Below the pieces are notes generated by a model. It ran no database searches. It was not told where the DNA came from and was given only the letters and a program-made list of their open reading frames with translations. A program made the position numbers and the translations under genes. A stretch of DNA of 44,243 nucleotides from Aporhodopirellula sallentina SM41 (GTDB lineage Bacteria > Planctomycetota > Planctomycetia > Pirellulales > Pirellulaceae): positions 1 through 44,243 of the forward strand of contig NZ_ANOH01000067.1 of the NCBI RefSeq assembly GCF_000346505.1, in the 5' to 3' direction. Shown here piece by piece: positions 12,531 through 30,893 of this stretch (within the stretch, counting starts at the first letter, position 1; each line of letters opens with the position of its first letter).

Positions 12531-12614
12531 CGGAAACATCGGGTGATGCTCCCCGCCTTAAGGAAGCAAGCGTACGTGCGGTTGCTCCGCTCGATCTGTT
12601 GGTCAGTGCCAAAC

Positions 12615-14102
12615 CTATTCAAACGGCAGGGTCAGTGTTTGGTCATAGCCAACGCGTTTGCGTTTTTGCACGTAGTCGCGAGTTCTGCGGAAGATGTCTT
12701 GATCGTCCGTGATGCGTGGGTCGCCCGTTTGACGTTGGTATTGTTCCAGTTGGCTGGAAAGCGATGCGATGTCGTCGGTGTATTGCGGATCATCGATCAG
12801 GTTGTGTTGTTCCCACGGATCATTCGCGACGTCATAAAACTCTTTGGCAATCGGAGTCGCCCACTGAGATCCGCCGATGTTGCCGTAGCGAACGATGTAA
12901 GAAAATCGATCATTGCGGATACTGCGGCTGGATCGTGAAGCAGGATCGAATTCGCCGTGCCATTCCAATCCGGTGACCACGCTGCTTCGGCTCGGATCGA
13001 TTCGGCCGGACTGTTCGGACCGCAGAATCGGAACCAGACTTTTCCCCGACATACCATCGGGAACGGGAATCCCGGCCAACTGTAGGAACGTGGGTGCCAG
13101 ATCGATCAGGCTAACGAAGTCGGTCACGGTTCGGCCGCCAGGCATCTTTGCCGGCCAGCGGATCGCCAGCGGAACATGGACACCGTTGTCATAGGGTGAA
13201 GCCTTGGCCCGCAGGGATTCGCCGTCCAGAACCACGCTGCCGTTGTCCGATGTCACCACGACCAGCGTATTGTCGTCTTGTCCGGTTCGTTCCAATAAAT
13301 CCAACATCCGCGACAGTTGCTGGTCGGCGTAGGCGATTTCATACAACGTGTTGCCGCGTTCGATCCGATTGGCTTCGGAATCGTCCATCACCGGCGGCAT
13401 CGGTACGGTGTCGGGCGACATGCCGAACTGGTCGGCCAAGCGTTGATGGTTTTGATCGCCGTAGGGGCCATGCGGTTCGTGAATGCCGGCCCAGAAGAAA
13501 AACGGTTGGTCCTGATCTCGGTCGTCCAAGAATTGCCGGAAGTTTTCGGCGTAGTCGATCGGGCTAATCCCCGGGATCGGTTCAGGTAACTCAATCGCGT
13601 CGTACGTCTTGCCGATCATCTGATCGTGACTTTCGTCGATCGTCACCCCGGGGCCCCATCCTTTGCCGGTATTGCCGACGTGGTAACCGTGCCGAGCCAA
13701 CACATGGGTAAACAACGGAATTTGCTGTGGCACGTACGCTTGAATGAAAGCACCTTGACGCAGTTCCCAGAAGTTGCGACCGGACAAGATCGACGCACGC
13801 GACGGGGCACAGGACGGCGCGGACGTGAATCCGTGCGTGAACAACGCCCCTTCTTTTGCAACACGATCAAACGCCGGCGTGGGCAAGTCCGACCAGCCAT
13901 GGATGCTGCGTTCCAACCAGCTTTCGTCGTCCGTGATGAACAGCAAGATGTTCGGCCGGTCGCTATCGTCCGCTCTGGCCGTCCCCGTCAACAAGCCGAC
14001 AAACATCAAGCTGACAAACATCAAGCTGACAAACATTACGCCGGCACAGTAAGCCCGGCGACGAATCATCCATCGACGGTACATGATTTCAATCGCATGC
14101 AT
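12615..14102 (-). CDS. Exported type I sulfatase (S1 family)
   Basis: A 495-residue sulfatase. After a signal sequence ending near ARA-DDS, the metal-binding RPNILLFITDDESW is followed by SAPSCAPSRASILSGRN, whose Cys98 in C-A-P-S-R is the residue converted to formylglycine. VVTSDNGSVVLDG supplies the second metal motif. S1 sulfatases remove sulfate esters from polysaccharides in the periplasm or outside. It is the last gene of the galactan-type operon, 18 bp after the BNR gene, so its substrate is probably a galactan sulfate (inference). The signal peptide contains a 15-bp DNA tandem repeat that lengthens its hydrophobic core. The ATG six codons later (14084) is an alternative start. The maturation enzyme is not in the window. 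Confidence 0.9.
   Translation of the reverse strand: MHAIEIMYRRWMIRRRAYCAGVMFVSLMFVSLMFVGLLTGTARADDSDRPNILLFITDDESWLERSIHGWSDLPTPAFDRVAKEGALFTHGFTSAPSCAPSRASILSGRNFWELRQGAFIQAYVPQQIPLFTHVLARHGYHVGNTGKGWGPGVTIDESHDQMIGKTYDAIELPEPIPGISPIDYAENFRQFLDDRDQDQPFFFWAGIHEPHGPYGDQNHQRLADQFGMSPDTVPMPPVMDDSEANRIERGNTLYEIAYADQQLSRMLDLLERTGQDDNTLVVVTSDNGSVVLDGESLRAKASPYDNGVHVPLAIRWPAKMPGGRTVTDFVSLIDLAPTFLQLAGIPVPDGMSGKSLVPILRSEQSGRIDPSRSSVVTGLEWHGEFDPASRSSRSIRNDRFSYIVRYGNIGGSQWATPIAKEFYDVANDPWEQHNLIDDPQYTDDIASLSSQLEQYQRQTGDPRITDDQDIFRRTRDYVQKRKRVGYDQTLTLPFE
13998..14036 (-). repeat. 15-bp tandem repeat inside a signal-peptide coding region
   Basis: GACAAACATCAAGCT occurs at 13998-14012 and 14013-14027, followed by a 9-base partial copy (14028-14036). 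On the coding strand it repeats the block MFVSL in the signal peptide of the sulfatase (VMFVSLMFVSLMFVGLL). The frame is kept because the unit is five codons. Slipped-strand copy change would alter the hydrophobic length of the signal peptide. Confidence 0.85.
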
Positions 14103-14120
14103 GGTATTTTCCGCGGAACG

Positions 14121-16862
14121 TTACCGCCGGTTCTGTGGGGAGGATTCGGATCGGTCGGGACGAAGGTCCAGGCAATAACTGCCCGACGCGGCGGCAGAGC
14201 ACCAGATGCGATCGGGTTTGCCGCTGTCGAATGCGATATCGCTTAACGGCATCGGACCGCGACCGAGATTGATTTTGAACCAATCCGATCCGTCCCCCGC
14301 TGCTCCGCCGGTGGCCGTGATGTAGGTGCCTTGGTTCAAGTTATTGATGCTGCTAGTTTCTCGCGTCGCCACCAAGACCCATTGGACGCTCCGCGGGCTG
14401 GTCGCGACTTGCGCACAGAACGGATGGTCAAAGATCATCGTCCAGTCGTCAGGGCGGTATCCACCGTTGGGTTTATAGTCAGCGATCCAAACGCCGCCTT
14501 CGCCCCAGTCCGCCACGTCGCCGTCTCCACCACCGGCGATCAAGATCTTCGTCGCCCGGTCGTCTTCGACGTGCAGATAGACGTCCCACAGCGAACGAAT
14601 GCCCGGCGGGATGGCTTCGGTCGTCCACGACGATGCACCGTCGGACGTGCGGTAAAGTCCACCGTCGGTGAATCCCTTGCCCGGGGCTTGGTAACGTTTG
14701 GCGGCGGCGTACAGAACACGGTCGTCGTCCGGTGCGACCACCAAGCCTTTGACACACACGCTGTCGTTGCCGACCGCTTTGCCATTGATCCGACCGGCGG
14801 CAGTGACGGGCAACCCGCGATTCACACAAGTCCACGAAACGCCGTCGTCGGTTGACTTGTAGATGCCTTTGCGAGCCGTTTGGCTGTAGATGCGTGTCTG
14901 TCCCATCGGAAAGTTGTCTGCATCGACGACCTCGGCCACGGCATAGATCGCGTCTTTGGTGACACGCAGGTTTCGCCAATAGACCATGTCTCGCAGCGCC
15001 GTTTCGTCCGGAACGACGATCGGTTCGCCATTGATCGCGAACGACTGGCCGTGATCGGTCGACTTGCAAAAGTTGCCACGACGCGGCGAGAAGAAATAGA
15101 AGACGTCCGGATCGCTGGGGTGCTGGGCCAGCGTGGTTGGGGCGATGTAGGGCATGCCGGGGGCCCATGACGGACCGTGATCGACCAAGCCGGGCAGTTC
15201 ACGAACGCCGGGGACGCCGGGGAAGTCTGGATGTGTTTGGTCGGTGGTTTTCCAAACGGATTCTTCTTGTTGTAACAAGAACATTTGACCGCGGCGATGA
15301 ATGTCGGGCACCACGGCATAGGCCCCCAAGTCACCATTGCCGTGACCAAAGTAGACTTCGCCGACTTGGGTGTTATCCACGCTGATCCATTGGTCGGCAT
15401 CAAAGTCATACTTCACGGTGTAGTAGCCCTTGTCGACGCTGGCAAACACGGTCCCATCGGCGGCGATGGCCGCCGTACGGCATCCGCGTATGTCGTACTT
15501 GTACGAATCCGGATACTTGTTGTCGTGAACTTGCGGGTCGATGTTCCGATTCAAACGATCGGGTTGTCGCTGGGCCCAATACGCGTCCTTTTGGAATCCT
15601 GTTCCCAAACGTGACGCGGCGAACCAAGAATCACCGCCGTTGTTCGATGCCCAGATGGCTCCGGTCACGATGCTGACAAAGTTCGGACGTGTCCCGTTGG
15701 CCAAGAACAAGCGATCCGGGTTGGTCGGGTCGCACAGGATCTCGTTGAAGTTGGGGAAATAAGATTTGGGCAGCTGAATCTTGGCTTCTTCTCCGTTTTC
15801 GAAGTCGAACCAAAACTTGACGAAAGATCGAAAGCGGTTGATCGGGATCTGCAAAGCTTTCAAGTCCACTCGCAAGTCCGATGTCTTGTCGATCCATCCG
15901 GTTTGTGTCGTCGCGGTTTGCGGTGATGGGGTGACGAACACGCCGCCGGACGATGCGATCGTTTGTCCGGCGACGGCATAGGTGGCTTGCTGCAACACAC
16001 ACAGCCGAAACGTTGAACCGTCCCAATTGGCGTCCATCTTGCAACAGCCCGACAAGATTCGTGTCCATGGCGATGTGGCATCATCACGCCGGTAGACGCC
16101 CGTCGATGTCGCTGCGAACAACATGTCGGGATAGCGGTCGACATCGGGATGACACAACAGATCAAACACCGACGTCGCGTTATTCATCCCATCGTTCGGA
16201 ATCGCCGTGATGGTTCGATCGTCGCTGGTGATCTGCGTGATCTTCCAAACCTTCGCCGCCGACGCGTCGATACGTTCGATCGGATTGGGGTTCGCGGCGG
16301 TACGAATTTCCGCGACGTCGATCCCGTTGGCGACGTACCAGGTGCCACGTTCCGCGGGATGCGCGACCGCGGTGTACCAGGGCGAATCGGGTTCGCGACC
16401 TGATGCGTACTTGGTGATCGGATGAAAACGTCGGCCGCCGTCGGTGCTGACTTCGATCCGTTGACTTGGACGAGCCCATTGGCCGACGTATCGCAAGCTG
16501 ACCACAACAGATGGATCCTTCGGATCGCTGGCCACACACACGTCGCTCAACTCTTGGCGGCGTCCCCAAACGCCATCGGGCGGGATGACTGATTCCCAGT
16601 GCAAACCACCGTCGGTGGTCAGATAATCGTTGCCCATGTCGGGTGTCACCCAGACTTTGTCGGGATCGACCGAATCGGTGTGAATGCGGCGATTGCTGCC
16701 CGCCATTCCCGGCGCGACTTGTTTCCAAACGAACCGAGGGTCCGAATCAATTTGCCGCGTCTTCAATTCGGCAAAGGTCCATCCGTCGGCCCGCAGGGAA
16801 GAGCCCAAGACTAACCCAATCAGTAAAAGGATCTGCAACGGCAGTAATCGACGTGTGTTCAT
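14121..16862 (-). CDS. Large exported BNR/Asp-box beta-propeller protein
   Basis: The ATG at 16862 gives 913 residues starting with a clean signal peptide (MNTRRLLPLQILLLIGLVLG, cleavage near LRA-DG); an upstream ATG at 16916 adds 18 non-signal residues. The mature protein is full of Asp-box turns: TTDGGLHWE, STDGGRRFHP, SNNGGDSWFA, STDHGQSFAI, STDDGVSWTC and TSDGASSWTT, spread over nearly the whole length as in two consecutive seven-bladed propellers (GH74/VPS10/sialidase-like). No accepted catalytic signature (sialidase RIP, GH74 Asp pair) is obvious. It sits between GH117 and the sulfatase in the galactan operon, so a glycan-cleaving or glycan-binding role is likely, but family and chemistry are unknown. 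Confidence 0.82.
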   Translation of the reverse strand: MNTRRLLPLQILLLIGLVLGSSLRADGWTFAELKTRQIDSDPRFVWKQVAPGMAGSNRRIHTDSVDPDKVWVTPDMGNDYLTTDGGLHWESVIPPDGVWGRRQELSDVCVASDPKDPSVVVSLRYVGQWARPSQRIEVSTDGGRRFHPITKYASGREPDSPWYTAVAHPAERGTWYVANGIDVAEIRTAANPNPIERIDASAAKVWKITQITSDDRTITAIPNDGMNNATSVFDLLCHPDVDRYPDMLFAATSTGVYRRDDATSPWTRILSGCCKMDANWDGSTFRLCVLQQATYAVAGQTIASSGGVFVTPSPQTATTQTGWIDKTSDLRVDLKALQIPINRFRSFVKFWFDFENGEEAKIQLPKSYFPNFNEILCDPTNPDRLFLANGTRPNFVSIVTGAIWASNNGGDSWFAASRLGTGFQKDAYWAQRQPDRLNRNIDPQVHDNKYPDSYKYDIRGCRTAAIAADGTVFASVDKGYYTVKYDFDADQWISVDNTQVGEVYFGHGNGDLGAYAVVPDIHRRGQMFLLQQEESVWKTTDQTHPDFPGVPGVRELPGLVDHGPSWAPGMPYIAPTTLAQHPSDPDVFYFFSPRRGNFCKSTDHGQSFAINGEPIVVPDETALRDMVYWRNLRVTKDAIYAVAEVVDADNFPMGQTRIYSQTARKGIYKSTDDGVSWTCVNRGLPVTAAGRINGKAVGNDSVCVKGLVVAPDDDRVLYAAAKRYQAPGKGFTDGGLYRTSDGASSWTTEAIPPGIRSLWDVYLHVEDDRATKILIAGGGDGDVADWGEGGVWIADYKPNGGYRPDDWTMIFDHPFCAQVATSPRSVQWVLVATRETSSINNLNQGTYITATGGAAGDGSDWFKINLGRGPMPLSDIAFDSGKPDRIWCSAAASGSYCLDLRPDRSESSPQNRR

Positions 16863-16950
16863 CGCGAAGATTTGCATCGGTTGTGGCAGGATGGTGCGAT
16901 CGGTCATGACCGGCATTGCCGGCGACGGTTAGGTGACGGACGGCGGCGGC

Positions 16951-18207
16951 TTATCGGCCTTCGGGGTGTTCTTCCAAGGTGTGCATGCCTTGTTCAAAGT
17001 AGACGTCGGGTTTGTGCCAGACCCCGGTCTTTTTAAAACCTGGCTGGTCGACGTCCAGGCTGAAGTCACAGTCGAAACGTGCCAAGATCGAATAGCTCTT
17101 CTGTGGCGTGCCCGCGTTGACGAAGTGGCACAGTCCCCAGGTGAATCCGCGTCCGTCTTTGGTGTCGGTAAACATGTCCGGCGCAAAAGGGGCGGCCGCC
17201 GTGGGTGTCAGCGACAAACACGACGCGATTTCAAAGTTCACGCCATCGGGCGAATACTGCATCGTGTCACGTTCATTGCCGTCTTTGATCGCCAGCGCGG
17301 CCACGCCACCACGGAAAGGAAAATAGGTGGTTTCGTGTCCGGAATTCAGAACCGGATTCAACGGATGTTTGTGAAAGGGCCCCAGCGGGTCATCGGCGGT
17401 GGCCAGGCCATGAGCGACCGCGTACACGTCACGTTTGTCGGGCCATTTGTTGTACGCCGCTTTGTAATAAAGATAGATCTTGCCTTGATAAACAATCGGG
17501 TGCGGATCGTGCGTGGCGTTTTGGTCCCACTGGCCGGGTTTGCCGAACGGAATGATCGCGTCGCCGCCGTGAGTCCAAGGGCCGTCGGGTGAATCCGCAT
17601 AAGAAACGGAAACCGGGCAAAGGTCCCCGCGAAGACCACTGGGTTCGTTGAACGCTTGATAGTAAAGGTAATATTTGCCCTTCCAAACCAAGATGTCGGG
17701 CGTGCAAACCGAACGCCAACCGGGGGCGGGTTTGGGCGGGCGCGCGACGGCAATACCCTGTTCCTGCCAAGTGATTCCGTCTTTGCTGGTCGCGTGCCAG
17801 ATGTCAGAAAGATCCCAATCGGTGGACGGGATCGCATCGGTGGCTTCATCAGCACGATTCCATCCGATGGGCGGGACCGGTGATTGGCGGCGGGTGTACC
17901 AGATGTGATAAGTATCACCGACGCGGATCGGACGCGACGGATCACGCCGTGAAATCGTTCCGTCCCCGTTGTGGTAGTCGAATCCTTGCAAACGCGTGTA
18001 TTTGAACTGTGAAAACAATTCATTGTCTTGGACGCGAGGTGCCGGATAGTCGAACATCCGGTGCATCGCGGAACTGAGCGGAATGTCGGGCCGTTGCTCG
18101 GGCATTTTATGCGGGAACACGGAATCCTGGCCTTGGCAACGTCCGACCGCTGGCAAGGTCAGGGTCAACACAATCAATGACCGAATCGAAAGGGACATCG
18201 CATTCAT
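16951..18207 (-). CDS. GH117 family enzyme (alpha-1,3-anhydro-L-galactosidase-like), copy 1
   Basis: A 418-residue five-bladed propeller enzyme with signal peptide (to about residue 26). Its GH117 nature is strong: NELFSQFKYTRLQGFDYHNG, GDGTISRRDPSRP, AIPSTDWDLSDIWHATSKDG, PGWRSVCTPDILVWKGKYYLYY and NSGHETTYFPF. By position Asp82, Asp234 and the His291-Glu292 pair correspond to the catalytic set described for agar-acting GH117 enzymes (from memory of that family). GH117 clade A removes 3,6-anhydro-L-galactose from neoagaro-oligosaccharide ends; other clades have uncertain substrates. The start codon overlaps the GH16 stop by 4 bp (ATGA), implying translational coupling. A paralogue lies at 29607-30893. 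Confidence 0.9.
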   Translation of the reverse strand: MNAMSLSIRSLIVLTLTLPAVGRCQGQDSVFPHKMPEQRPDIPLSSAMHRMFDYPAPRVQDNELFSQFKYTRLQGFDYHNGDGTISRRDPSRPIRVGDTYHIWYTRRQSPVPPIGWNRADEATDAIPSTDWDLSDIWHATSKDGITWQEQGIAVARPPKPAPGWRSVCTPDILVWKGKYYLYYQAFNEPSGLRGDLCPVSVSYADSPDGPWTHGGDAIIPFGKPGQWDQNATHDPHPIVYQGKIYLYYKAAYNKWPDKRDVYAVAHGLATADDPLGPFHKHPLNPVLNSGHETTYFPFRGGVAALAIKDGNERDTMQYSPDGVNFEIASCLSLTPTAAAPFAPDMFTDTKDGRGFTWGLCHFVNAGTPQKSYSILARFDCDFSLDVDQPGFKKTGVWHKPDVYFEQGMHTLEEHPEGR

Positions 18208-19502
18208 CGTTCATTTTCCTTTTGGTAATAGCGAACCCAATCGACCTTCATGCTGGTCCCGTCGATTTGGTCGGAAACGGTGCCGGCCCAATGGATGATG
18301 GCTTCACTGAGCCAGATCGGGCATTCACTTTTGCAAAACTCGTTGGGCGTGCGACGAAGTTCTTTGCGGTCCTGGTAAAAGACCAATTCGTCTTCGGTCC
18401 ACAGCAAACCATAGGTGTGATAGTTGGCACCAAAGTCAGCTTCGTCCTTGGAATTCATGGTGGCCACATCCTGCCAAGTTTTGCCATCGTGGGCTTGGAT
18501 CGTGTAGTCGCTGACTTGGCCCCATCCGGTCCAGTGTCCATCCTTTTGCCAGCCATTGATGAACTGGACGCAGCCGATGGTGATCGGATCAGGCCATTGC
18601 AGTTCGATCCATTTTTCGCCATCGTCGGGCGATGTCCAACTGGTGCTTATCGTTCCGTCGACCGCATGCTCGGGACGAGTGTTTGGGTTGTACACGCCAC
18701 TGGCGGTGACTCGGGCGGATGCGTCGGCGGCATGATTGACCAGACCGTCGATGTCTTGGTCGGCGGATTCCGAAAGTGGATCTGGGTACCGGTCGCTGAC
18801 ACCAAAGACGCGGAGTTCGCGGATATGAAAATGCGGGCTGGTGTTGGAGGCTAATCGCAGACGCGTGGTTGTGATGGGAATTTCCAGCGGCAACGAATAG
18901 TCCGGACGCATGCCAAAGGCGAAACCTTTGTGAGCCGACGGATGAGACTTCTTTCCATCATCGCCGACCACGACGTCGGACCAATTGTGAATGTTTGTGT
19001 TCACTTCATTGGGATAGTGACCTTCGTTGATATCGATTTCAAATCGCTTGCCTTCGGTCGGGTCGTCGCCTCGTGTCATTAGCCAGAATGAATTGTTCGT
19101 TCCGGTGGCTTCGGCATAGCGATAGCGACATTCGAAATAGCCGTACTTGAATTTCTTTCGCGTCCAGATGCTGCCCGACGTCCAGTCTTGGCCACCGCGT
19201 TGCTGTTTCCGATTGACCAAGTGCAGAATGCCATCTTTGACCACCACGTTTTCACGCCATCGGCTGCACAAGATGTGATGGCTGGGGGCATTTTGGGATT
19301 CCCAGTGCTTGTCCAGGTCTTCGTTCGGATAGTCAAACTCGTCCTGCCAGACGAGTTTCCAACCAGACAGATCCATCTGCGGTTGTGAGACGGTCGGCGA
19401 CGGATCGGCGGGATTTTCCGCAAAAGACGGTGCGACGACGCCCAAAACGACCGCCAACAAGCCGATCGTTAAAGGGCGAAGATAAACGTGAAGGCGTGAC
19501 AT
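18204..19502 (-). CDS. GH16 galactan hydrolase with an inserted, permuted discoidin-like domain
   Basis: 432 residues with signal peptide (to about residue 28). GH16 marks are LSGWKLVWQDEFDYPNEDLD, WTSGSIWTRKKFKYGYFECR and the catalytic FEIDINEGHYPNEVNTNIH, with Glu155 as nucleophile, Asp157 and Glu160 as acid/base in the ExDxxE form of agarases and carrageenases. The fold resumes at HTYGLLWTEDELVFY (361 on) and ends TSMKVDWVRYYQ. Residues ~198-358 are foreign to GH16 and resemble an F5/8C (discoidin, CBM32-like) domain in swapped order: TTTRLRL...FHIRELRVFG first, then VYNPNTRPEHAVDG...WIELQWPD...SDYTIQAHDGKTW. Joining residue 197 to 359 restores a normal GH16 sequence. Expected role is endo-cleavage of red-algal galactan; exact substrate is open. 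Confidence 0.9.
   Translation of the reverse strand: MSRLHVYLRPLTIGLLAVVLGVVAPSFAENPADPSPTVSQPQMDLSGWKLVWQDEFDYPNEDLDKHWESQNAPSHHILCSRWRENVVVKDGILHLVNRKQQRGGQDWTSGSIWTRKKFKYGYFECRYRYAEATGTNNSFWLMTRGDDPTEGKRFEIDINEGHYPNEVNTNIHNWSDVVVGDDGKKSHPSAHKGFAFGMRPDYSLPLEIPITTTRLRLASNTSPHFHIRELRVFGVSDRYPDPLSESADQDIDGLVNHAADASARVTASGVYNPNTRPEHAVDGTISTSWTSPDDGEKWIELQWPDPITIGCVQFINGWQKDGHWTGWGQVSDYTIQAHDGKTWQDVATMNSKDEADFGANYHTYGLLWTEDELVFYQDRKELRRTPNEFCKSECPIWLSEAIIHWAGTVSDQIDGTSMKVDWVRYYQKENER
18429..18911 (-). other. Inserted circularly permuted F5/8C-like domain within GH16
   Basis: Codons for residues ~198-358 of the GH16 protein. The C-terminal strand motif of a discoidin domain (RLRLASNTSPHFHIRELRVFG, in part residues 214-234) comes before a linker with DPLSESADQDIDG and then the N-terminal motifs (TASGVYNPNTRPEHAVDG near 266-283, WIELQWPDPITIGCVQF near 298-314). 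The total of about 161 residues is one domain in size, not two. Confidence 0.7.
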
Positions 19503-19557
19503 TGTGGGATGGTGGGAGTGAAGGAGAAAGGGAAAGTGGTTGGGATTGCCATGCCGA

Positions 19558-20676
19558 TCACTTTGCGTCGGGCGGCGTCAGCGGGATGTGGACGTTAAAG
19601 GAATGCACTTGCTGGGCGGTTTCTTCGGCGGCGCAGAACAGCACCGCAGGCTTGCCGTTTTCCATCCACAATTGAGGACGTTCCAAACGGTTCAACTTTT
19701 GATAAGTCCCGTCGGCCCACGTCAGTTCGCGGGCGGTGACCAGCGGGTTGGCGGCGATTTCCCAATCCAGTCCGTTCTTGGAAGTGAACAGCGACAGTGA
19801 ATCGGTATTCAAACCGTTGAACGCGCCGTGATGGTCGTTAACGATCGCCAAGCAAGTGTCGCCCTGCGACCAAATGAAGGGATCTTCGGCGGAGAAGTTC
19901 TCGCCTGGGACGGTGAACAGCGGCTTCATGTGCTTTTCAAACGGACCGGTCGGCGAATCGCTTGTCGCGGCCAAGTGAACGACGGGACCTCCGAAGGGAC
20001 GTTCGCGTTTCAATCCCACGGCTTTGTAAATCAACACGAACGTTCCATCGGAACGCCGCAGGATCGACGGGTTGCTGGTCATCAACGCATCGTGGGCTGA
20101 TTCATCCGGTGTGATGTCGATCAGCGGTTGATCAAAACGCTTCCACGGACCGGCCGGATGATCGGCAACGGCGACGCCGATCCGCTGGTTGTTTCGGTGC
20201 GTCCAATTCAGCCGCTCGGTGGGCTTCCGATCGCCCGTATTGCCCATGTAGTACAGGTAATACTTTCCATCAAACTCGTGCACCGTCGGGTTGTGAGTGC
20301 AAAGCCCGTCCCAGTATTCGCCTCCACGTTCGGGCAACGCGATATCGACATGCGTGTACGGCCCCAACGGATGATCGGCGACGGCGTGCGCGATTTCCGA
20401 ATGAGTCACCCAGGCACCGTGTTTCAAGTCACGGGGCCAGCGACTGTACAGCAGATGACATTTGCCGTCGGCGTCACGTACCATGCTGCCGCCCCAAATG
20501 TAATAGCCTTCGTCGATGAACTTCGCCGATGCGGGAACGGGCGACAGCATCGCGTGAAGGTTCAACTGGGCCGGATCATCGGTATGTGGGCTTTCGGCGC
20601 GAGCGGGACTCGTGAGGCCGATCGAAGCGATGCAGCACAGGACCAGCGAACAAGCAATGGACTGGATGACTTTCAT
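19558..20676 (-). CDS. Exported GH43-like five-bladed propeller protein
   Basis: The ATG at 20676 gives 372 residues with a signal peptide ([20 protein letters not shown], cleavage near ARA-ESP); the longer frame runs into the GH2 gene. Blade-type repeats are visible: [86 protein letters not shown] and [21 protein letters not shown]. This is the GH43/GH117 type of fold, yet the usual GH43 Asp of blade 1 is replaced (YIWGGSMV) and that of blade 2 is Asn (HNPTV). It may belong to a separate family or use other residues. Located between GH2 and GH16 with gaps of about 55 bp, so it probably trims galactan oligosaccharides. Confidence 0.8.
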
Positions 20677-20728
20677 GGGGTGGGCTCGTGGGGTGGGGTT
20701 TGGAAAAACAGGGCAGGTTGGCGGGAAA

Positions 20729-23700
20729 TCATTCGGCAAAGACGTCTTCGGTGGCGTTCACGATGTTCGACCACCCGCTTTCTTTACCCGATGCGATTCG
20801 TTTCATCCGAAGCGATACTGATTTGGCATCGTTCACATCGACTGACAGCATGCCTCGCAGATCGGTTTGCAGTTCACTGGAAAGATCTGATTCGTCCTCG
20901 CCGTACTGAACGACGTAGGTCGCATCATCCGGCTGGGCGGAGTATCCAACGACCAGCCGGCCATCGTGAACGAAAGCGTGCCAGATGACTGGCGGCAAGA
21001 TCGTGCCGTCGGTGGTCACATCGATCGGTTGCGACGGAACACTGTCGCCTTTCGCGTTGGACGTGATGACGCGGACTTGGTAATCGCCGCCGGCGGTTAG
21101 TTCACTCAGATCCACGTAGGGATCGATCGTCCGCTTGCTTTCGGTGGTCGTTCCGTCGGGACCGATGCAGCGAACGAACCACTCGTCGGCTGACGCGGGC
21201 CGATCAAAGAAGACGCGAATCGAATCGTGGCTTGCGATCGCCGTTGCGCCGGTCGGCTTTTGCGGAACCGCAAACCGCTGGACCGTTTCGTAGCGTGTGA
21301 ATCCGTTGGGTGTCACCAAGCGTGCAACTAAGTCAAACGCGTCGGTGGGGAACGTTTGCCAGTGGATCGTTCCGGTCCAAGGCGAATCCCCGGGCTGAAG
21401 CGTCGGCAAATCGATCGACTCGGTCAGCAGCGTGTTGCCATCGGAATCGCGAAACTGCCATACCAGGTCGTAATCTTGCATGGTGAAGCAAGGATAGTCA
21501 TCGCGACCGCGGATCGGGATCTTCACCGACGCATTGTTTTGATTGGGATTGACCGCGTCGATTTGGATGTCCAAAACGGGGCTGTTTTCCGATCGGCACT
21601 GCGCGAACAATCGTCGTTTCTGTCGCCAAACATTGACCAAGCCCCATGCACGGTTTTCGTCTTCCAACGTTTGTGCGTACCCGCTGCGGTAATCGTTGTA
21701 GGTCCACAGTGACGCGCCGATGACAAACGGAAAATGGCCGCGGATGCACGCGTTCCACTGATCCAGTTCGGGCAGCGATCCGTCCAAACTGGCTTCGGTG
21801 AATTTGCCCATGCCAAACTCGGAAAAGAAGATCGGCTTGTTCGGCCACTTCCGATGCAGGGCTTCGATCATCGTCGTCGGCCGCTGCATATAGCAGTTCT
21901 GCAGCATGACATCGGATTCGCCCAGCGGATCGGTTTCCGGGGTTTCGTGATCGCGATAGCCCGTGTTGCTGACACAACTGACCAAGCGATGCGGGTCCAA
22001 TTCACGACGCACGTAATCGATCATCTTGGCGACGTACGTGTAGTGGTTGCTCAGTTCATTACCAACGCTCCATCCGATGATCGACGGATGATTCACATCA
22101 CGCTCGATCATCTCCCGCAACCATTGACGTGTCAATGGATAATCGGGCGGTGTGAGTTCTGGGTTGGTCAGTTCGCGAACGTTGACCTCTTCGAACAACA
22201 GGATGCCGTTTTCGTCGCACAGTTCGATCAGCCGTTTGTTTTGCGTGCCGTGCATGATCCGCATGAAGTTCGCGTTGGCATTCTTCATCAGTCGGACATC
22301 GTGCCGCAGCACATGCTCGGGTTCCGAACTGCCCCAGTAACGATGGTCGCTGACGCGGTTGTATCCCGCCAAGCGGACCTTTTCGCCGTTCAGCCATAAG
22401 CCTTCGGGTTTGATCTGAACCTTGCGAATGCCGAATCGATCGCTGCGTGAATGCTGTGACGAACCGTTTTCACGAAGCGTTGTTTTGGCGTGATACATAT
22501 GCGGTCGGTCGAAGTGCCAAAGGTGCACGTCGGCGGGCTTCAAGTCGATGTTGATGGTGGCTTCGCGGTCATTCTTCGCCGGCACCGTGATGGTGGCCGT
22601 GCCGGAGCCCAACAACCGATCACCGTCGTAAAGTTCAGTTTGCAGATCGACCGTGCGTTGTCGCGTGCTGTCGTTGGTCGCGCGGACTTTTGTTTGGATC
22701 GCCGCAGTGCCGGCGTTCAAATCTGGTTCCGCGTGAACGTACTGATAAGACACGCGGACGTCGCTGGTTTGAATCAGCGACACGTCACGGATGATGCCGC
22801 CCCAATTCCAAGTCGCGCCGACCAAGAAGTCATTGTCGGCTTCGACCGCCAACACATTTGTTCCGTCGAAATTCAGCTGGTCCGTGACGTCAAACTCGAA
22901 CGGTGTCAGCCCGCCTTGATGACGTCCGACGTACCGACCGTTCAGAAAGACGCGAGCCACGTGATAGACGGCTTCGAAACGCAAGCGGATGCGTCGACTT
23001 TCATCGCGTTGCCAGGTTTGGGGCAAGGTGAAAGATCGTCGATACCAACCCTTTCCGTTGTAATTGCTGTACTCGTTCCGCATGCCCCAGTGACCCGGCA
23101 CAGGGATCGCATCCCAATCGGAATCATCCAATTCGGGGGATGGTGCATTGCGGATGTCGGCACGTGATGCCAACCACTGTGCATCGGAAACCGGACGTAA
23201 CATCACTGCGTCAGCGGCAACACCACCGGGCGTAATGGCGGACATTTCAAGGAAATGATCGCCGCCGGGATCCAATCGATAAACGCCCAGGCTGACCCAT
23301 TGTGCGCATCGCACACGCTGGCTGATATGTTGTGTGTCGGTTCCGTCGGCGTGAGCAATCCGCACTCGCGTTGTCAGGTGATGACCAAAGGGATAATAGA
23401 TGAAGTGTTCGAACAGGCCGGCACGCGGTGGCGTGGTGTCGAATCGGACGGCCGGCAATGATTCTCCGGGAACGAAGTCTGCGTCAGTGTAGAACCGGGT
23501 CCGATAGTCGTCGCCCCAAAGTTTCGTGTCGCGATCGCCTTCGGTTTTGCGTCCCCAATTTCCAACAACCTCGACAAGATCGTCGTTAGCATTGTCAATC
23601 ACGATGTCATCCGGACCGGCCTGAATGCGGTGCGGATCAGAACCTTCGCCGAAGAACGTATTGAATTTCCACTCGCTGCCAAGCGAGACGACTTGTTCGT

Positions 23701-23809
23701 CCTCGCCAGATGGCTGTTGTGTATACGCTGACGGTGACGAAAGCATGCACCCGAGAACGAAACAGATTCGAACCAGGGGGAAATGCGGCGAATCGAATAG
23801 GTGGGACAT
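20729..23809 (-). CDS. GH2 family beta-galactosidase-like enzyme with N-terminal golvesin-like domain
   Basis: From the ATG at 23809, 1026 residues with a signal peptide ([20 protein letters not shown]). An ATG at 23872 overlaps the upstream stop as ATGA and is a real alternative; it would put 21 extra residues before the signal. Domains: ~67-207 golvesin/xanthan-lyase-type binding domain ([38 protein letters not shown]); ~222-347 GH2 sugar-binding; ~352-452 GH2 immunoglobulin; ~457-732 TIM barrel with acid/base Glu585 ([10 protein letters not shown]) and nucleophile Glu664 ([10 protein letters not shown]); then fibronectin-III-like sandwiches. GH2 enzymes in agar and porphyran loci remove beta-D-galactose from oligosaccharide ends. 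The context with GH117 and GH16 fits that role. Confidence 0.9.
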
Positions 23810-23868
23810 CGGAGGGAATTGATGGGGGTGGGATTGCTGGATTCGGTTGGCTGAGGGCTCGTTCACGG

Positions 23869-26148
23869 TCATTCGAAGACGCGGACGCGGAACACACTGA
23901 CGGGGATGCTGTTGTCCGTGCCGCTGACTTCGATCTTCAGCCCGCTGGTTTGCGTCGCGGGGAACGACAGATCGCAACGTGTTTGGTGGTTGTCGGAAAC
24001 CTCGGCCAAGCAAAGCCCCGTATCATCCGTCACGCGAATGTTCGCCGCACAAAACGGCATGCGTGATTCGGGATGCCCCATCAGCACGGTTTCCATCGGG
24101 TGATCCAGGTCCGTGTCCAACGCGACGACGACGCGCCGAATCGTGACCGGTTGTTCCCAATTCAGATCCAACGTCGGTGACGCATCATCGGGCGACGCGA
24201 CCCAAGCGTTGATGCCCGACGTCGGACGTTCGGGCCCGGTGATGACATTGGCTGGACCGAACCCGGACAGCGGCGGTGTGATCTGCATCGCCAAGTTCTT
24301 GCCGGCGGGCCTTCGTTGAGGCAGCCAAAATTCAAAGCGTTCGACGCCGATACCGTCCGGCGGATCTTGAACCGCCGAATTGCTGACTTTGCGTTCCAGC
24401 GTGTGGTGCACCGACAAGACACCGGTCATGCGCTGGTCGCTGAGTGATACCGTGACGTCAGGGTTGGCCATCAAGCAGACAAACAGATAACGCGGTGTAT
24501 CGATCGTGACGTCAAAATCGACTTCCACCGATTGGCGTCCAGCGTCCACCGCCACGTTGCGACTTGCCAGGACTTCGTCGGGCGTGAAGGAGTCTTCGCG
24601 AGTGCAGCCGCGCAGTTCAAACTGGATCTCGGTGGTCGACTTGGCATCCAATTGAAACTGGAATCGCGGAAGCTTGCCCGGAACGATTGGCAGCAGCATT
24701 CCGACGGGACTTTCCAATGGGATCGAGTCGTCGCCCGCCGGCAGACATTGCAATTGCAGTTCACTGCTGGCCGACACCGTCGCCTTGGTCGCCAAGTCGG
24801 CTTCGTCATCGGTCAAGACGTGTGGGATGTGTTGACCGGTCCGCAGCAGTTCTTTCTGCAGCCCCCGCATCCGAACCTCATCCAACAAATCCTTGGGGAC
24901 CAAGTTGTCTCGATGACAGATCGCCGCCGCCATGCCGACGGCTTGAGCGTTGTGGGCACACGTGGCCATGACGCGAGTCGATCCGAATGCCAAGTGGCTG
25001 GCACTGATGATCCGACCGGCCAAGAACAGGTTGCGAATGTTGCGGCTGTACATCGCACGGAAGGGAATCGGATAGACGCCTTTGCTGTGCCACTGATTGC
25101 AACCGGGCAGATCGCTGTAAACGCCATCGGACGGGTGCAGGTCGACGGCCCATCCGCCAAAGCTGACCGCGTCGTTGCATCGTCGTTGTTCGATGACGTC
25201 TTGCTGGATCATCATCGTGTCCCCTTCGAAACGACGACTTTCGCGTTTGCCGGGGATCTGGCCGACCCATTCCAACGTCAACGTTTCAGCCTCGGGAAAT
25301 TTCCCCGAGTTTTTCATGTAGTCCCAGACGCCGTAAACGATTTTCCACAATTCCCACTTGATCGTTTCGGTTTCGTGGACGGTATCCAGACGACCGCCGT
25401 ATTCGATCCACCACAGTCGGCAACCGTCTTGGCCGACCGCAAAGTTTCGCCAACGCGGAATGGCTTTGATGTCTTTGATCGCAAAGCTGGGCGGCACGAA
25501 TCGAACCGGTCGCCCTGTGTCTTTGGTGTAGAAGTAAATCGAATGGCCCAGCAGTTGGCCGTAACTTTCATCGGGTGCGAACTGTTCACCGAACTCTTCT
25601 TTCGTTTCCGCGCCCATGCGGAACGCGGCACCCGACATGAAACCGATGATGCCGTCGCCCGACGCGTCACAGAACAACCGCGAAGACACATCGTACATCG
25701 TGCTGTTCTGGCTACAGAACGCTCGCACTGACTGAATCGTGTCCGGGTCGCTCTTGGTGACTTCGAATGCGGCCGTGTTCAACAGCAACGTGATGTTGGG
25801 TTCTTCGACGACCTTTTCCAACAGGATCGTGTCCAAGATCAGCGGGTTTCCGTCGCTGTTGCGATACGTGTTTTCGACAAAGATCTCGTCGATCACGCCA
25901 CCTTCGCGGGCCCAGCGGTTGTTGTTGCCCATGTGCGACGTCGCGCCCAACGCCCACAAGCGGACTTCGCTTGATGCGTTGCCGCCCAGCACCGGTCGGT
26001 CTTGGATCAAGACCACGCGGATGCCGGCACGAGCCGCAGTGATGGCGGCGCACACACCGGCCAATCCGCCGCCGACGACGACAAGGTCAGTTTGAATTTG
26101 TTTGACCAGAGGCGATCTGGTTTCGGCGACGGGTCCGTCGTTGATCAT
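23869..26148 (-). CDS. FAD-dependent oxidoreductase (FAD_oxidored family)
   Basis: A 759-residue protein with a Rossmann FAD site near the start (TDLVVVGGGLAGVCAAITAA; Gly26, Gly28, Gly31) and RPVLGGNASSEVRLW typical of the PF12831 class. FCDASGDGIIGFMSGAAFRMG and NLFLAGRIISASHLAFGSTRV continue the fold. The last ~280 residues form beta-rich sandwich regions, one resembling a discoidin-type domain (FGPANVITGPERPTSGINAW). There is no signal peptide or Tat motif, so it is predicted cytoplasmic, unlike the hydrolases around it. Its start overlaps the symporter stop by 4 bp. Substrate unknown; oxidation of an imported galactan-derived sugar is inferred. Such proteins are common in planctomycete sugar loci. 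Confidence 0.85.
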   Translation of the reverse strand: MINDGPVAETRSPLVKQIQTDLVVVGGGLAGVCAAITAARAGIRVVLIQDRPVLGGNASSEVRLWALGATSHMGNNNRWAREGGVIDEIFVENTYRNSDGNPLILDTILLEKVVEEPNITLLLNTAAFEVTKSDPDTIQSVRAFCSQNSTMYDVSSRLFCDASGDGIIGFMSGAAFRMGAETKEEFGEQFAPDESYGQLLGHSIYFYTKDTGRPVRFVPPSFAIKDIKAIPRWRNFAVGQDGCRLWWIEYGGRLDTVHETETIKWELWKIVYGVWDYMKNSGKFPEAETLTLEWVGQIPGKRESRRFEGDTMMIQQDVIEQRRCNDAVSFGGWAVDLHPSDGVYSDLPGCNQWHSKGVYPIPFRAMYSRNIRNLFLAGRIISASHLAFGSTRVMATCAHNAQAVGMAAAICHRDNLVPKDLLDEVRMRGLQKELLRTGQHIPHVLTDDEADLATKATVSASSELQLQCLPAGDDSIPLESPVGMLLPIVPGKLPRFQFQLDAKSTTEIQFELRGCTREDSFTPDEVLASRNVAVDAGRQSVEVDFDVTIDTPRYLFVCLMANPDVTVSLSDQRMTGVLSVHHTLERKVSNSAVQDPPDGIGVERFEFWLPQRRPAGKNLAMQITPPLSGFGPANVITGPERPTSGINAWVASPDDASPTLDLNWEQPVTIRRVVVALDTDLDHPMETVLMGHPESRMPFCAANIRVTDDTGLCLAEVSDNHQTRCDLSFPATQTSGLKIEVSGTDNSIPVSVFRVRVFE

Positions 26149-27860
26149 GATGGTGTCGAAATTTGTGAAAGGTTTGTGCGAGATTTGCGATGGGCGGCGT
26201 AACCGATTCCGGCAGACAGCAGGATCAGTGCGCTGGCAAAGTAGCCGATCGTTGCCAGGCTCTGCGTGTTGACAAACAACAACGCGAACATCATCAAGCC
26301 ACAGACCATCAACGCGCCCGACACGATGAAGCCGGGCGTGGGATCAAAGGTCGTTGCAACGGGGCTCGATGCGTTGTTCGCGACTTGGCCAGCCTGTGCC
26401 GTGTGGTGAAGACGTGACCAACCGGGCGACGTGCCCTTGGATAGCAATTGCACGACGGTCAAAACCGCGACGGGCAAGACCACGCCGACGACAACGTCGG
26501 GGTACTTGCCATAGGCGGCAAAAAAGTCGGGCCAGCCGAACTTCACCGCCGCACCGGCTAAGAAACAAACGCCCGCGGTGCACCAAACGGCCGTCTGTGA
26601 AATGCGTCGACTGAACAGCCCCCATATCGTCGGCGCTAACAGCGGTCCGACCATCAAACTGGTGATCGTCACAATCACGTCTTCGGCACCGCCCATTGCG
26701 GGAACGGCAATCGCCAACGCAATCAGGATCGCTCCCAGAACGAAGCTCATCCCGCGGCCGACACGCAACAAGTGCCGTTGATCGGATTGCGGACGCACGC
26801 GTTTGTAGATGTCTTCGGTCAACACGCCGGCGAAGACGTTCAACTGCGAACTGACCATGCTGGCCGTCGCCGAAAACATGGCCGCGATCATCAAGCCCAA
26901 CATGCCGATCGGCAAAACATGTTGGCACGACAGAACGTACGCTTGTTCCGGATCCGCGTCGGGATTGATCACGCGATAGGCCAGCGGCGGTAACAACCAC
27001 AACATCGGGCTGACCAAGTACAGGATGCCGAACAGGTAGGCACTCTTCTTTGCGTCGCGCGCACTGGGCACGCATAAGAACCGCTGGACGAACGCCCATT
27101 CCGCGCCGACCATGAAGAAGTGGATCGCCACCCAACCGGCCAAGAAGAACCACGTGTAGTCGCCCGAGACAGGATTGAAGAATCCTGGCGGTGCACGATC
27201 GATCAGCGAGCTGATTCCGCCCGCGTCCGCCACGATCAGCGGGATCATGAACAGCACGGCCAAGTTCAAAACGATGAACTGCAACACGTCAGTCATCAGC
27301 ACCGCCCACAGCCCGCCGACCATCGTGTACAGCACGACGATGCCGCCGAACACCAGGATCGCCCAAGTGATCGACAGATTGCCGGTCGCCGGATCACGCA
27401 GCGGGTTTCCTTCGGCCAACGGCATCAGCGCGACCAACAACACCGACAATGAATACAACGCCACCGCCACGCCGACCATGCGATAGATCATCATCGACCA
27501 GGTGTAAAAGTGCAGCGGACCGACGCCGTAACGCTTTTCGATAAACTCCGCCGGCGTGCGAATCCCGATCCGCTGCCAGTGACCGGCGACGAAGTATCCG
27601 ACCAACACCGCGGCGACGCCGTAGCAAAGGTTGATCATCACCGCGACGATCCCAAGCCGATACGCGATGCCACCCCAGACAACAAACGTCCCGGCGGAGA
27701 ACATCGTCATGAACGCGCTAAGCCCCGACGCCCACCACGGCGATTGACCGCCCGCGGAAAACAGGTCACCGGTGTTCTTCACCTTCGCACTTAACCCAAC
27801 ACCCACGGCAAAGATGCCCAGCAGGTACGTCAGCAAGACGACATAATCGGTCAGGGTCAT
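26145..27860 (-). CDS. Sodium:solute symporter (SSS family), galactan operon
   Basis: 571 residues from the ATG at 27860 (MTLTDYVVLLTYLLGIFAVG). The open frame extends 67 codons further upstream but that part is not membrane-like and covers a repeat array, so the later start is preferred. SSS marks are FSAGGQSPWWASGLSAFMTMF with FSAGTFVVWGGIAYR, YTMVGGLWAVLMTDVLQF, EWAFVQRFLCVPSARDAKKSA and AAMFSATASMVSSQLNVFAG (Na+ site region); about 13 membrane spans. It imports sugars or oligosaccharides with Na+. First gene of the minus-strand galactan operon; its stop overlaps the start of the FAD oxidoreductase gene (ATGA, 26145-26148), implying coupled expression. Confidence 0.92.
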   Translation of the reverse strand: MTLTDYVVLLTYLLGIFAVGVGLSAKVKNTGDLFSAGGQSPWWASGLSAFMTMFSAGTFVVWGGIAYRLGIVAVMINLCYGVAAVLVGYFVAGHWQRIGIRTPAEFIEKRYGVGPLHFYTWSMMIYRMVGVAVALYSLSVLLVALMPLAEGNPLRDPATGNLSITWAILVFGGIVVLYTMVGGLWAVLMTDVLQFIVLNLAVLFMIPLIVADAGGISSLIDRAPPGFFNPVSGDYTWFFLAGWVAIHFFMVGAEWAFVQRFLCVPSARDAKKSAYLFGILYLVSPMLWLLPPLAYRVINPDADPEQAYVLSCQHVLPIGMLGLMIAAMFSATASMVSSQLNVFAGVLTEDIYKRVRPQSDQRHLLRVGRGMSFVLGAILIALAIAVPAMGGAEDVIVTITSLMVGPLLAPTIWGLFSRRISQTAVWCTAGVCFLAGAAVKFGWPDFFAAYGKYPDVVVGVVLPVAVLTVVQLLSKGTSPGWSRLHHTAQAGQVANNASSPVATTFDPTPGFIVSGALMVCGLMMFALLFVNTQSLATIGYFASALILLSAGIGYAAHRKSRTNLSQISTPS

Positions 27861-29467: not shown

Positions 29468-29606
29468 ACAAAGCCTCCGCGGCTCCTATGCTGTTGAACA
29501 GAAATGGAAACCTCGCTTTCGATGTTCGCCATCGTGATCGTAGTACTTCCAAACATCCTTTCGCCAAACACATATGGCAGCTTGGTCCCCACGTTTCGGC
29601 ACTACG

Positions 29607-30893
29607 ATGATGCATAGAACACCGCTTCATTGGTTCTATCTACTTCCCGCATTGGTTCTCGCGACGCTCGCGAAAGTTCCCGCGGACGAACCCACGACCG
29701 CGTTTCCCTACACAGTTACCGATGAGACAAAGGATCGAGAACTCAGCGCCGCAATGCGCCGGAGTTTCGAGCACTATCCGGCACCACGTTTAGAAGACAA
29801 CGAGCTGTACTCGCAGTTCAAATACACGCCACTGAAAGGATTCGACTACCACGGTGGCGACGGAACCGTGTCCAGGCGCGATGCGACCAAAGTGGTTCGC
29901 GAAAACGGAAGGTACTACGTTTGGTACACGCACCGCAGCACTCCGACACCGCCGAAGGGTCCCGACAAGTGCACCGACACCATTCCGTCGACCGACTGGG
30001 ATTTAGCCGAGATTTGGTACGCGACCAGCGACGATGGATTCACGTGGACTGAACAAGGCGTCGCGGTCCCTCGTCCAACGAAGCCCAATCCGGGATGGCG
30101 TTCCGTCGCGACGCCGGGCGTTTTGAAGTTCAAAGACAAGTTCTATCTGTACTACCAAGCGTTCTCCGAACCCAGCATGACGCGAGGCGACTATTGTCCG
30201 ATTTCGGTGTCGTTTGCCGACTCGGTGGATGGACCATGGACGCCCGCCAATACCGAAACCGTTCCCACCGGCAAACCGGGCGAGTGGGATCAGTACGCTG
30301 TCCAAGACCCCAACCCACTGGTCCACAACGGTAAGGTTTATCTCTATTACAAGTCGGCGTTCAATCGTCCCCATGCTTTGTGGGTCGCACAAGGGTTAGC
30401 CATCGCGGATAACCCTCTCGGCCCGTTCATCAAACATTCGCTCAACCCGGTCATGAACTCCAGCCACGAGGTCGCATTGTTTCCGTTCAGAAAAGGTGTC
30501 GCCTGCCTATCGATTCGTGACGGGCAAGAACACTTTACCGTTCAATATGCCGAAGATTGGATCAACTTTGAAATCGCATCCATCACCGAACTGATGCCCG
30601 TCGCCGCCGGCCCGTATGTCCCCGATGCCTTCACCGATTCGGGCGACGGTCGTGGCATTACCTGGGGTATCTCGCACTTTAAAAATGCGACGAGAAACTG
30701 GTCACACCAACACTCGATATTGACTCGATTCGATTGTGATCTCAGTCTCGACGTGGACGATCCTGAAATGAAGAAAAGCCATATCGACTATCGTCCTGAA
30801 CACCACTACCAATTCGGGCTCAGCAACAAACAACGCGAACGAATCGAAAGAGAAAATCGCCAACTGCGGTCTGAGGACCAGAAAACTCCCTAA
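29607..30893 (+). CDS. GH117 family protein, copy 2 (divergent)
   Basis: From the ATG at 29607, 428 residues with a signal peptide (MMHRTPLHWFYLLPALVLAT, cleavage near VPA-DEP). It has the GH117 blocks NELYSQFKYTPLKGFDYHGG, GDGTVSRRDATK, DTIPSTDWDLAEIWYATSDDG and NSSHEVALFPF. The positions matched to the catalytic set are kept (Asp85, Asp234, His287-Glu288). However, the conserved CTPDILV segment of copy 1 is ATPGVLK here, so an Asp common in this clan is Gly171. The C-terminus has an extra charged helix (NKQRERIERENRQLRSEDQ). The protein may have changed specificity or reduced activity. It lies 139 bp after XylR-type regulator 2 and away from the main operon. Confidence 0.87.
   Translation: MMHRTPLHWFYLLPALVLATLAKVPADEPTTAFPYTVTDETKDRELSAAMRRSFEHYPAPRLEDNELYSQFKYTPLKGFDYHGGDGTVSRRDATKVVRENGRYYVWYTHRSTPTPPKGPDKCTDTIPSTDWDLAEIWYATSDDGFTWTEQGVAVPRPTKPNPGWRSVATPGVLKFKDKFYLYYQAFSEPSMTRGDYCPISVSFADSVDGPWTPANTETVPTGKPGEWDQYAVQDPNPLVHNGKVYLYYKSAFNRPHALWVAQGLAIADNPLGPFIKHSLNPVMNSSHEVALFPFRKGVACLSIRDGQEHFTVQYAEDWINFEIASITELMPVAAGPYVPDAFTDSGDGRGITWGISHFKNATRNWSHQHSILTRFDCDLSLDVDDPEMKKSHIDYRPEHHYQFGLSNKQRERIERENRQLRSEDQKTP

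Follow-up and report, generated by a model that had tools for sequence, protein, structure and literature searches.

A GH16 enzyme gene from a planctomycete polysaccharide cluster, interrupted by an F5/8C-type domain in apparently circularly permuted order

The window, a 44,243-nucleotide stretch of Aporhodopirellula sallentina SM41 DNA that was analysed as a whole, carries a gene for a 432-residue protein (18204..19502, minus strand, as are all parts of it described below) in which Pfam recognizes glycoside hydrolase family 16 (GH16). The GH16 profile PF00722 matched in two separate stretches (55.9 bits; cut-off 22) with the N-terminal half of an F5/8C domain (PF00754) between them, the split arrangement that the original prediction had anticipated. 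PDB sequence matches and insert-free relatives delimited the second GH16 part at aa 356-429 (18216..18437) and, together with Pfam, the first at aa 46-197 (18912..19367). A hydrophobic segment at the N-terminus (aa 1-28; 19419..19502) reads as a putative signal peptide. The alignment of relatives located the motif ExDxxE (E155, D157 and E160; 19023..19040), which we take to be the GH16 catalytic motif, and its three acidic residues were identical in 60 of 60 rows. With the whole protein as a single query, a PDB sequence search returned 31 sequences at E <=1, all named as GH16-type enzymes (glucanases, laminarinases, carrageenases and cellulases), 6xof, 5ocr and 7wwc being among the best matches. 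By sequence match, motif and a continuous fold, the protein is a member of GH16; it shares ExDxxE and the continuous jelly-roll with laminarinase- and kappa-carrageenase-like enzymes, and differs from PF00722 proteins in being interrupted by a permuted module. It is predicted from its sequence to be a secreted endo-glycosidase, probably one that targets seaweed polysaccharides.

The interruption consists of about 158 extra residues (aa 198-355; 18438..18911) that separate two GH16 strands. This protein has ...KGFAFG(insert)ADFGANYHTYG at the site where one insert-free relative (L095) shows ...KAFCMDTIDFSREYHLFG and another (L079) ...EAFTFENIDFSKEYHTFG. The insert had originally been drawn at aa 198-358 (18429-18911); the start at residue 198 stands, whereas alignment with the insert-free relatives has GH16 resuming at about D356 rather than A359, so that the end falls near residue 355 (18438), three residues earlier. 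The sequences of L095 and L079 agree with the claim that GH16 is continuous once the insert is skipped. The description of the insertion point as lying just after the catalytic strand was inexact, as DSSP on the structure model places two further strands (model residues 127-134 and 150-156, that is, aa 166-173 and 189-195) between ExDxxE (aa 155-160) and the insert. The proposed survey of GH16 homologues found both forms. Among 80 loci plus L010, L011, L012, L120 and L136, 62 ORFs carried the insert in full together with both GH16 parts, and another 25 had both GH16 parts but no insert; partial ORFs were placed in neither class. The same insert was present in 59 ORFs of a scan of contigs, and it is therefore neither a chance product nor an assembly artefact. 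The arrangement is real, well delimited and recurrent.

AlphaFold2 (AF2), run on aa 40-432 with 60 sequences, was confident for the whole protein (pLDDT 94.6, pTM 0.86, never under 50 for three or more consecutive residues) and modelled the isolated insert as a single unit (pLDDT 88.8, pTM 0.84). Foldseek matched the full model to 130 PDB entries at E <=0.001, with E values down to 1e-12, and the 50 best of these were GH16 enzymes by title, with TM scores by target of up to 0.77. Since these 50 alignments spanned 387-447 columns, the chains being 215-480 residues long, GH16 was aligned across the insert, and no break in the GH16 fold was seen there. A sequential Foldseek search of the isolated insert against the PDB gave no matches at E <=0.001; the first match was an unrelated dioxygenase (1zvf, E 0.023), followed by a CBM domain (7tok, E 0.063), and the matches to the CBM32 4lpl and the discoidin domain 5y4m were weak (E 0.26 and 0.29, respectively; TM 0.31-0.35). 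A permuted domain may evade a sequential aligner such as Foldseek, and the null result is no proof of the fold. We predict a discoidin-type jelly-roll on the basis of sequence profiles and the confidence of the model.

Within the insert, the halves of an F5/8C domain stand in swapped order. The C-terminal half, located by profile comparisons, comes first (aa 202-234; 18801..18899; YSLPLEIPITTTRLRLAS...HIRELRVFG) and ends in the motif HIRELRVFG (aa 226-234), which, as had been noticed from the sequence, lies upstream of the N-terminal motifs. An alignment of inserts defines the linker that bridges the original C- and N-termini (aa 235-258; 18729..18800), and the N-terminal half, found both by Pfam and by profile comparisons, follows (aa 259-353; 18444..18728). 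The linker, about 24 residues long, is conserved. In the alignment of 56 inserts, its P240 and N256 were nearly invariant, as were E36 and R38 of that alignment (the E and the second R of HIRELRVFG). W324, in the N-terminal half, is nearly invariant as well. Scanned alone, the insert matched PF00754 at 29.0 bits (cut-off 28.2) through its N-half only, covering just positions 2-87 of the 127 in the profile; within the whole protein the score was 25.7 bits, under the cut-off. The same profile matched 54 of the 56 inserts at E <=0.01.

A profile of the 56 inserts (four others with long inserts were excluded from 60) found CBM32 and discoidin chains among PDB sequences, 34 in all at E <=10. The best solved relative was YeCBM32 (2jd9, E 4e-6), followed by 4a42 (E 7.5e-6). 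The best-scoring relatives were mostly modules of carbohydrate enzymes, and 8 of the 34 sequences were neuropilin-1. Swapped-order matches appeared in three of the five PDB alignments listed, those to 7rga, 2w1q and 4a42, which we take to be CBM32s or proteins built on one. For 7rga, profile columns 75-158 aligned with chain residues 15-104 and columns 10-39, weakly (6.2 bits), with residues 114-145; for 2w1q, columns 78-158 aligned with the first part of the domain and columns 10-46 with its end (also weak, 5.5 bits); for 4a42 the swap was very weak, with a second match of 0.8 bits. The other two, 2jd9 and 7ji1, matched through the N-half only. The insert resembles F5/8C and CBM32 domains in its N-half, which lies just over the Pfam cut-off when the insert is scanned alone but under it in the whole protein, and in both halves when compared with 7rga and 2w1q; it differs in the swapped halves, in being nested in a catalytic domain rather than appended, and in its conserved linker.

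As an ordinary-order reference, we used a profile of 29 F5/8C domains from the same bacterial family (1 of 30 loci was excluded for its odd length). Against a single copy of this profile, the N-half of the insert scored 50.0, and the C-half, which is short and weak alone, scored separately at 25.1 (hhalign probability 17%). When the ordinary profile was doubled head to tail, a single alignment spanned the junction and scored 61.6. Fully column-shuffled doubled profiles scored at most 18.7 (20 of 20); when only the C-half was shuffled, none of 100 controls reached 61.6, with a mean of 51.1 and a maximum of 59.0, close to the real score. Comparing halves separately, insert against ordinary domains, gave 50.5 for N with N and 21.7 for C with C, against 11.7 and 13.7 for the crossed pairs. 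Half-domain HMMs run on 60 individual inserts detected both halves in 56, with C before N in 52 of the 56 and the reverse in one, an order that is partly forced by the little sequence left downstream; the ordinary C-half HMM reached i-E <=0.01 in just 1 of 60, so this agreement counts as weak evidence. The order that defines F5/8C domains, N-half then C-half, is not the order of the insert, and we therefore describe it as a circularly permuted variant rather than an ordinary member. These profile comparisons, along with the confident model, support the reading of the insert as a single F5/8C domain whose order is circularly permuted.

The same halves could instead be the remnants of two adjacent F5/8C domains, each degenerate and neither permuted. 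One usual way for a permutation to arise is that a domain is duplicated in tandem and the outer halves are then lost, and the history of the insert may have passed through such a state. Two broken half-domains are nonetheless rejected as an account of the present insert, and we regard them as highly improbable: its length in 60 sequences (154-210 residues including flanks) is that of one domain, as originally proposed, both halves are legible by eye in the aligned inserts, and AF2 gives a confident model of the insert by itself.

A module in the same order occurs in a second protein family. Planctomycete PSCyt2-PSD1 (DUF1549-DUF1553) proteins read ARFVRFTxxAT..EPCIDELEVF, then a short linker, then the N-half. 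We found 15 such cases among the loci examined (L029, L030, L032, L034, L036, L037, L123, L124, L127, L128, L132-L135 and L137), in ORFs 916-1025 residues long, many of them cut by the end of the locus; the module lies at aa 414-613. In all nine of the 15 that were scanned with Pfam, the F5/8C N-half was preceded by DUF1549 and followed by DUF1553; Pfam reported mainly that half, up to profile position 82-99 of 127, and in four of the nine it stayed under the cut-off. Doubling the ordinary profile raised the score of the PSD1-module profile from 53.8 to 75.3, a larger gain than for the GH16 insert, and none of 100 shuffles reached 75.3 (maximum 63.1). The best solved match of this profile was 2jd9 (E 0.002), again in swapped order, the two halves matching weakly (13.7 and 5.1 bits). 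The PSD1 module and the GH16 insert were co-linear (probability 97.6, score 76.3, columns 16-156 to 12-143), and differ in that the PSD1 module has a shorter linker, its own motifs (PCIDELEVF and NDG.YGN..SWIS) and another host protein. Of 199 genomes of the phylum, 25 carried the PSD1 module in its close form at E <=1e-12; at that threshold it was absent from the window's own genome.

This second occurrence bears on the reading in which an ordinary F5/8C domain was inserted whole, the upstream HIRELRVFG matching by accident, with the true C-half downstream. Pfam does report the N-half in place, and the match of the C-half is weak alone. After the N-half, however, just 2-3 residues are left before GH16 resumes, the HIRELRVFG-type motif is kept upstream in the aligned relatives with E36 and R38 nearly invariant, and the PSD1 module has the same order. 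We have rejected a whole ordinary insertion on these three grounds and give it hardly any credence.

On a possible common origin of the two permuted modules, their halves give different answers. The N-halves of the GH16 insert and the PSD1 module scored 60.5 with each other, against 50.5 (insert) and 52.9 (PSD1) with ordinary domains; the C-halves showed no such excess, scoring 21.1 with each other and 21.7 and 26.2, respectively, with ordinary domains. It is conceivable, though we lean against it, that one ancient permutation brought the ends of a discoidin/CBM32 domain together at one loop, making an insertion-ready plug-in that was planted in at least two unrelated protein families, GH16 enzymes of five phyla and PSCyt2-PSD1 proteins of planctomycetes; permutation would then be the general way in which evolution turns a terminal module into a nested one. 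A separate F5/8C match in the window's own genome (L007, G000:C280:29129-29365) also has, by eye, a C-half (RFVRIELSG...LAEVQVFS) before the N-half, and its sequence is perhaps that of a third permuted setting.

The inserted GH16 form spans five phyla and is patchy within the window's bacterial family. Of 98 genomes searched, the window's own included, 34 matched, three of them with close copies that carry the insert (the window's own, G023 and G003), while G091 had a GH16 without it, 54-65% identical. The contig scan yielded 139 relatives, and of the best 80 loci retained from these, 50 held the 59 inserted ORFs and 19 held insert-free ORFs only. Hosts of the inserted form fall in Planctomycetota, Bacteroidota, Verrucomicrobiota, Lentisphaerota and Pseudomonadota, the last represented by one Gayadomonas plasmid; some names of metagenome-assembled genomes (MAGs) may be wrong. 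Within the window's bacterial family, the insert was found in 4 of 149 genomes and 3 of 68 genera at E <=1e-20. A scan of the phylum with a three-row insert profile matched 17 of 392 genomes at E <=1e-4, mostly through the N-half only; nine of these matches were PSCyt2-PSD1 proteins, and the GH16 form appeared just in the window's genome and in G225. On a tree of the GH16 parts (63 inserted, 25 insert-free and 4 outgroup rows), built by a quick method and with several long branches, the insert changed state at least 6 times, 3 of these changes being forced by starred branches, compared with a mean of 24.7 for shuffled traits. The insert is mostly inherited, with some gains or losses, and the tree is compatible with one gain followed by losses or with several gains.

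The gene lies among others for polysaccharide breakdown. A GH117 gene adjoins it on one side (16951..18207, minus strand; 4u6b at E 3.2e-220 and 4ak5 at E 1.3e-65). Upstream are a GH43/GH117-like protein with weak, partial matches (19558..20739, minus strand) and, by Pfam, a GH2 (beta-galactosidase-like) protein with an N-terminal Golvesin_C match (20729..24013, minus strand). Golvesin_C was also present in the frames of two insert-free GH16s, L064 and L051, in the latter just under the cut-off. A sulfatase, a Sortilin/BNR-type protein and an FAD-dependent oxidoreductase also adjoin, and farther off are a sodium:solute symporter, a GH29-type alpha-L-fucosidase, AraC-type regulators, a second sulfatase and a second GH117 (29574-30893; 4u6d at E 1.7e-178). 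The two GH117 genes, about 11 kb apart in the cluster, are closest to 4u6b and 4u6d, respectively, which are presumably GH117 paralogues from Zobellia, their PDB names being 'conserved hypothetical'. Proteins of GH117 with 52-79% identity occurred in the flanks (at most 6 kb, often shorter) of 14 of 50 inserted loci, compared with 0 of 19 insert-free ones. According to an excerpt of one paper, GH117 enzymes release 3,6-anhydro-L-galactose from pieces of agar (PMC11574756). The neighbouring genes (two GH117, GH2, sulfatases and GH29) suggest that the substrate is a red-algal sulfated galactan.

DNA comparison placed the GH16 gene within a segment (12591..27860) shared with another genus. Over 15,273 bases this segment is 98.7% identical to a single-contig genome (G023). 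Other matching DNA in the same region is 66-83% identical, and for a stretch located further on in the window the two main matches show 73-76%. Given this disparity in sequence identity, the bulk of the polysaccharide cluster was most likely transferred between genera in the recent past.

Taking these observations together, we put a probability of roughly 0.8 on the reading that the gene encodes a probably secreted GH16 endo-glycosidase whose jelly-roll is interrupted by a complete permuted F5/8C (CBM32-type) domain, which would hold the enzyme on red-algal sulfated galactan. The conserved linker would bridge the original termini of the domain. The new ends of the domain would lie between the W..VA strand and the strands ending in aryVRL, in the stretch that normally connects them. 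As these two new end points adjoin along the ordinary chain, the permuted domain could plug into a single GH16 loop and leave the enzyme unbroken, perhaps with its binding site near the cleft, as first proposed. The module would most likely keep the enzyme on the galactan while the GH16 cleft cuts the polymer, and the GH117, GH2, sulfatase and fucosidase enzymes would then finish the oligosaccharides. Since dozens of related enzymes share the arrangement, it suggests that end-swapping is how the module came to fit inside another protein.

The insert might instead be structural or regulatory, serving as a lid, a dimer interface or a stability brace that shapes the cleft, and bind no sugar at all. 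Discoidin domains also bind proteins and lipids, and the share of neuropilin-1 among the PDB matches (8 of 34) is a reminder that not all of them bind sugar. Such a role would suit the defined orientation of the insert relative to GH16 that the AF2 pTM of 0.86 implies, the many conserved insert positions that look to us like fold positions, and the 25 GH16 relatives, 43-69% identical in their best GH16 segments, that do without the insert. The predominance of carbohydrate-enzyme modules among the best-scoring solved relatives, however, fits sugar binding better, as does the location of the gene amid polysaccharide-degrading genes, and we consider a purely structural or regulatory insert unlikely.

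Each element of the preferred reading, the permuted binding module nested in GH16, is known singly: the CBM32-like module, the GH16 enzyme, domain insertion and circular permutation. Carbohydrate enzymes normally carry their binding modules in a row at the ends of the chain. The Vibrio cholerae sialidase has a lectin domain nested inside its glycosidase domain, and in the engineered GluXyn-1 a xylanase is inserted in a GH16 lichenase, so the GH16 fold tolerates a nested domain; to our knowledge, neither the lectin domain nor the GluXyn-1 insert is permuted. Montanier et al. reportedly described in 2010, going by the title of that work, a natural circular permutation that links two families of carbohydrate-binding modules, presumably CBM36 and CBM60. 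That case is likewise a natural permutation among carbohydrate-binding modules, and it differs from ours in concerning calcium-dependent modules of other families. Among the 59 PDB sequences listed, none appears, over the best stretches compared, to hold GH16 and the insert together.

What appears new, set against the open-licence literature searched, is the combination as a stable family and the sharing of its module with another protein family. In that literature, among the matches listed and at the level of titles and abstract openings, no permuted F5/8C domain and no GH16 with a nested CBM was named. In the accessible part of the GH16 subfamily paper, CBM32 is mentioned once, linked to about 75% of GH16_8, and the words 'insertion', 'inserted', 'nested' and 'circular' do not occur (PMC6827312). 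A carrageenan paper, in the portion available, mentions a probable new GH16 subfamily in polysaccharide utilization loci (PULs) of Bacteroidetes (PMC5698469). A family that is permuted and nested, and that has insert-free relatives, is a natural experiment on a module coupled to a catalytic fold, and it offers a concrete case of permutation as a way to make a domain insertable. Permutation would also explain why Pfam sees half a domain here and in the nine PSCyt2-PSD1 proteins scanned.

Two loci with insert-free GH16s have features of their own. In Marinoscillum furvescens (L079, 5731-7956), inserted and insert-free GH16 copies lie in adjacent ORFs, a natural pair for experiments. In a Tannerella MAG (L096, 3146-5680), one frame combines matches to GH43 and IU_nuc_hydro (nucleoside hydrolase) with an insert-free GH16.
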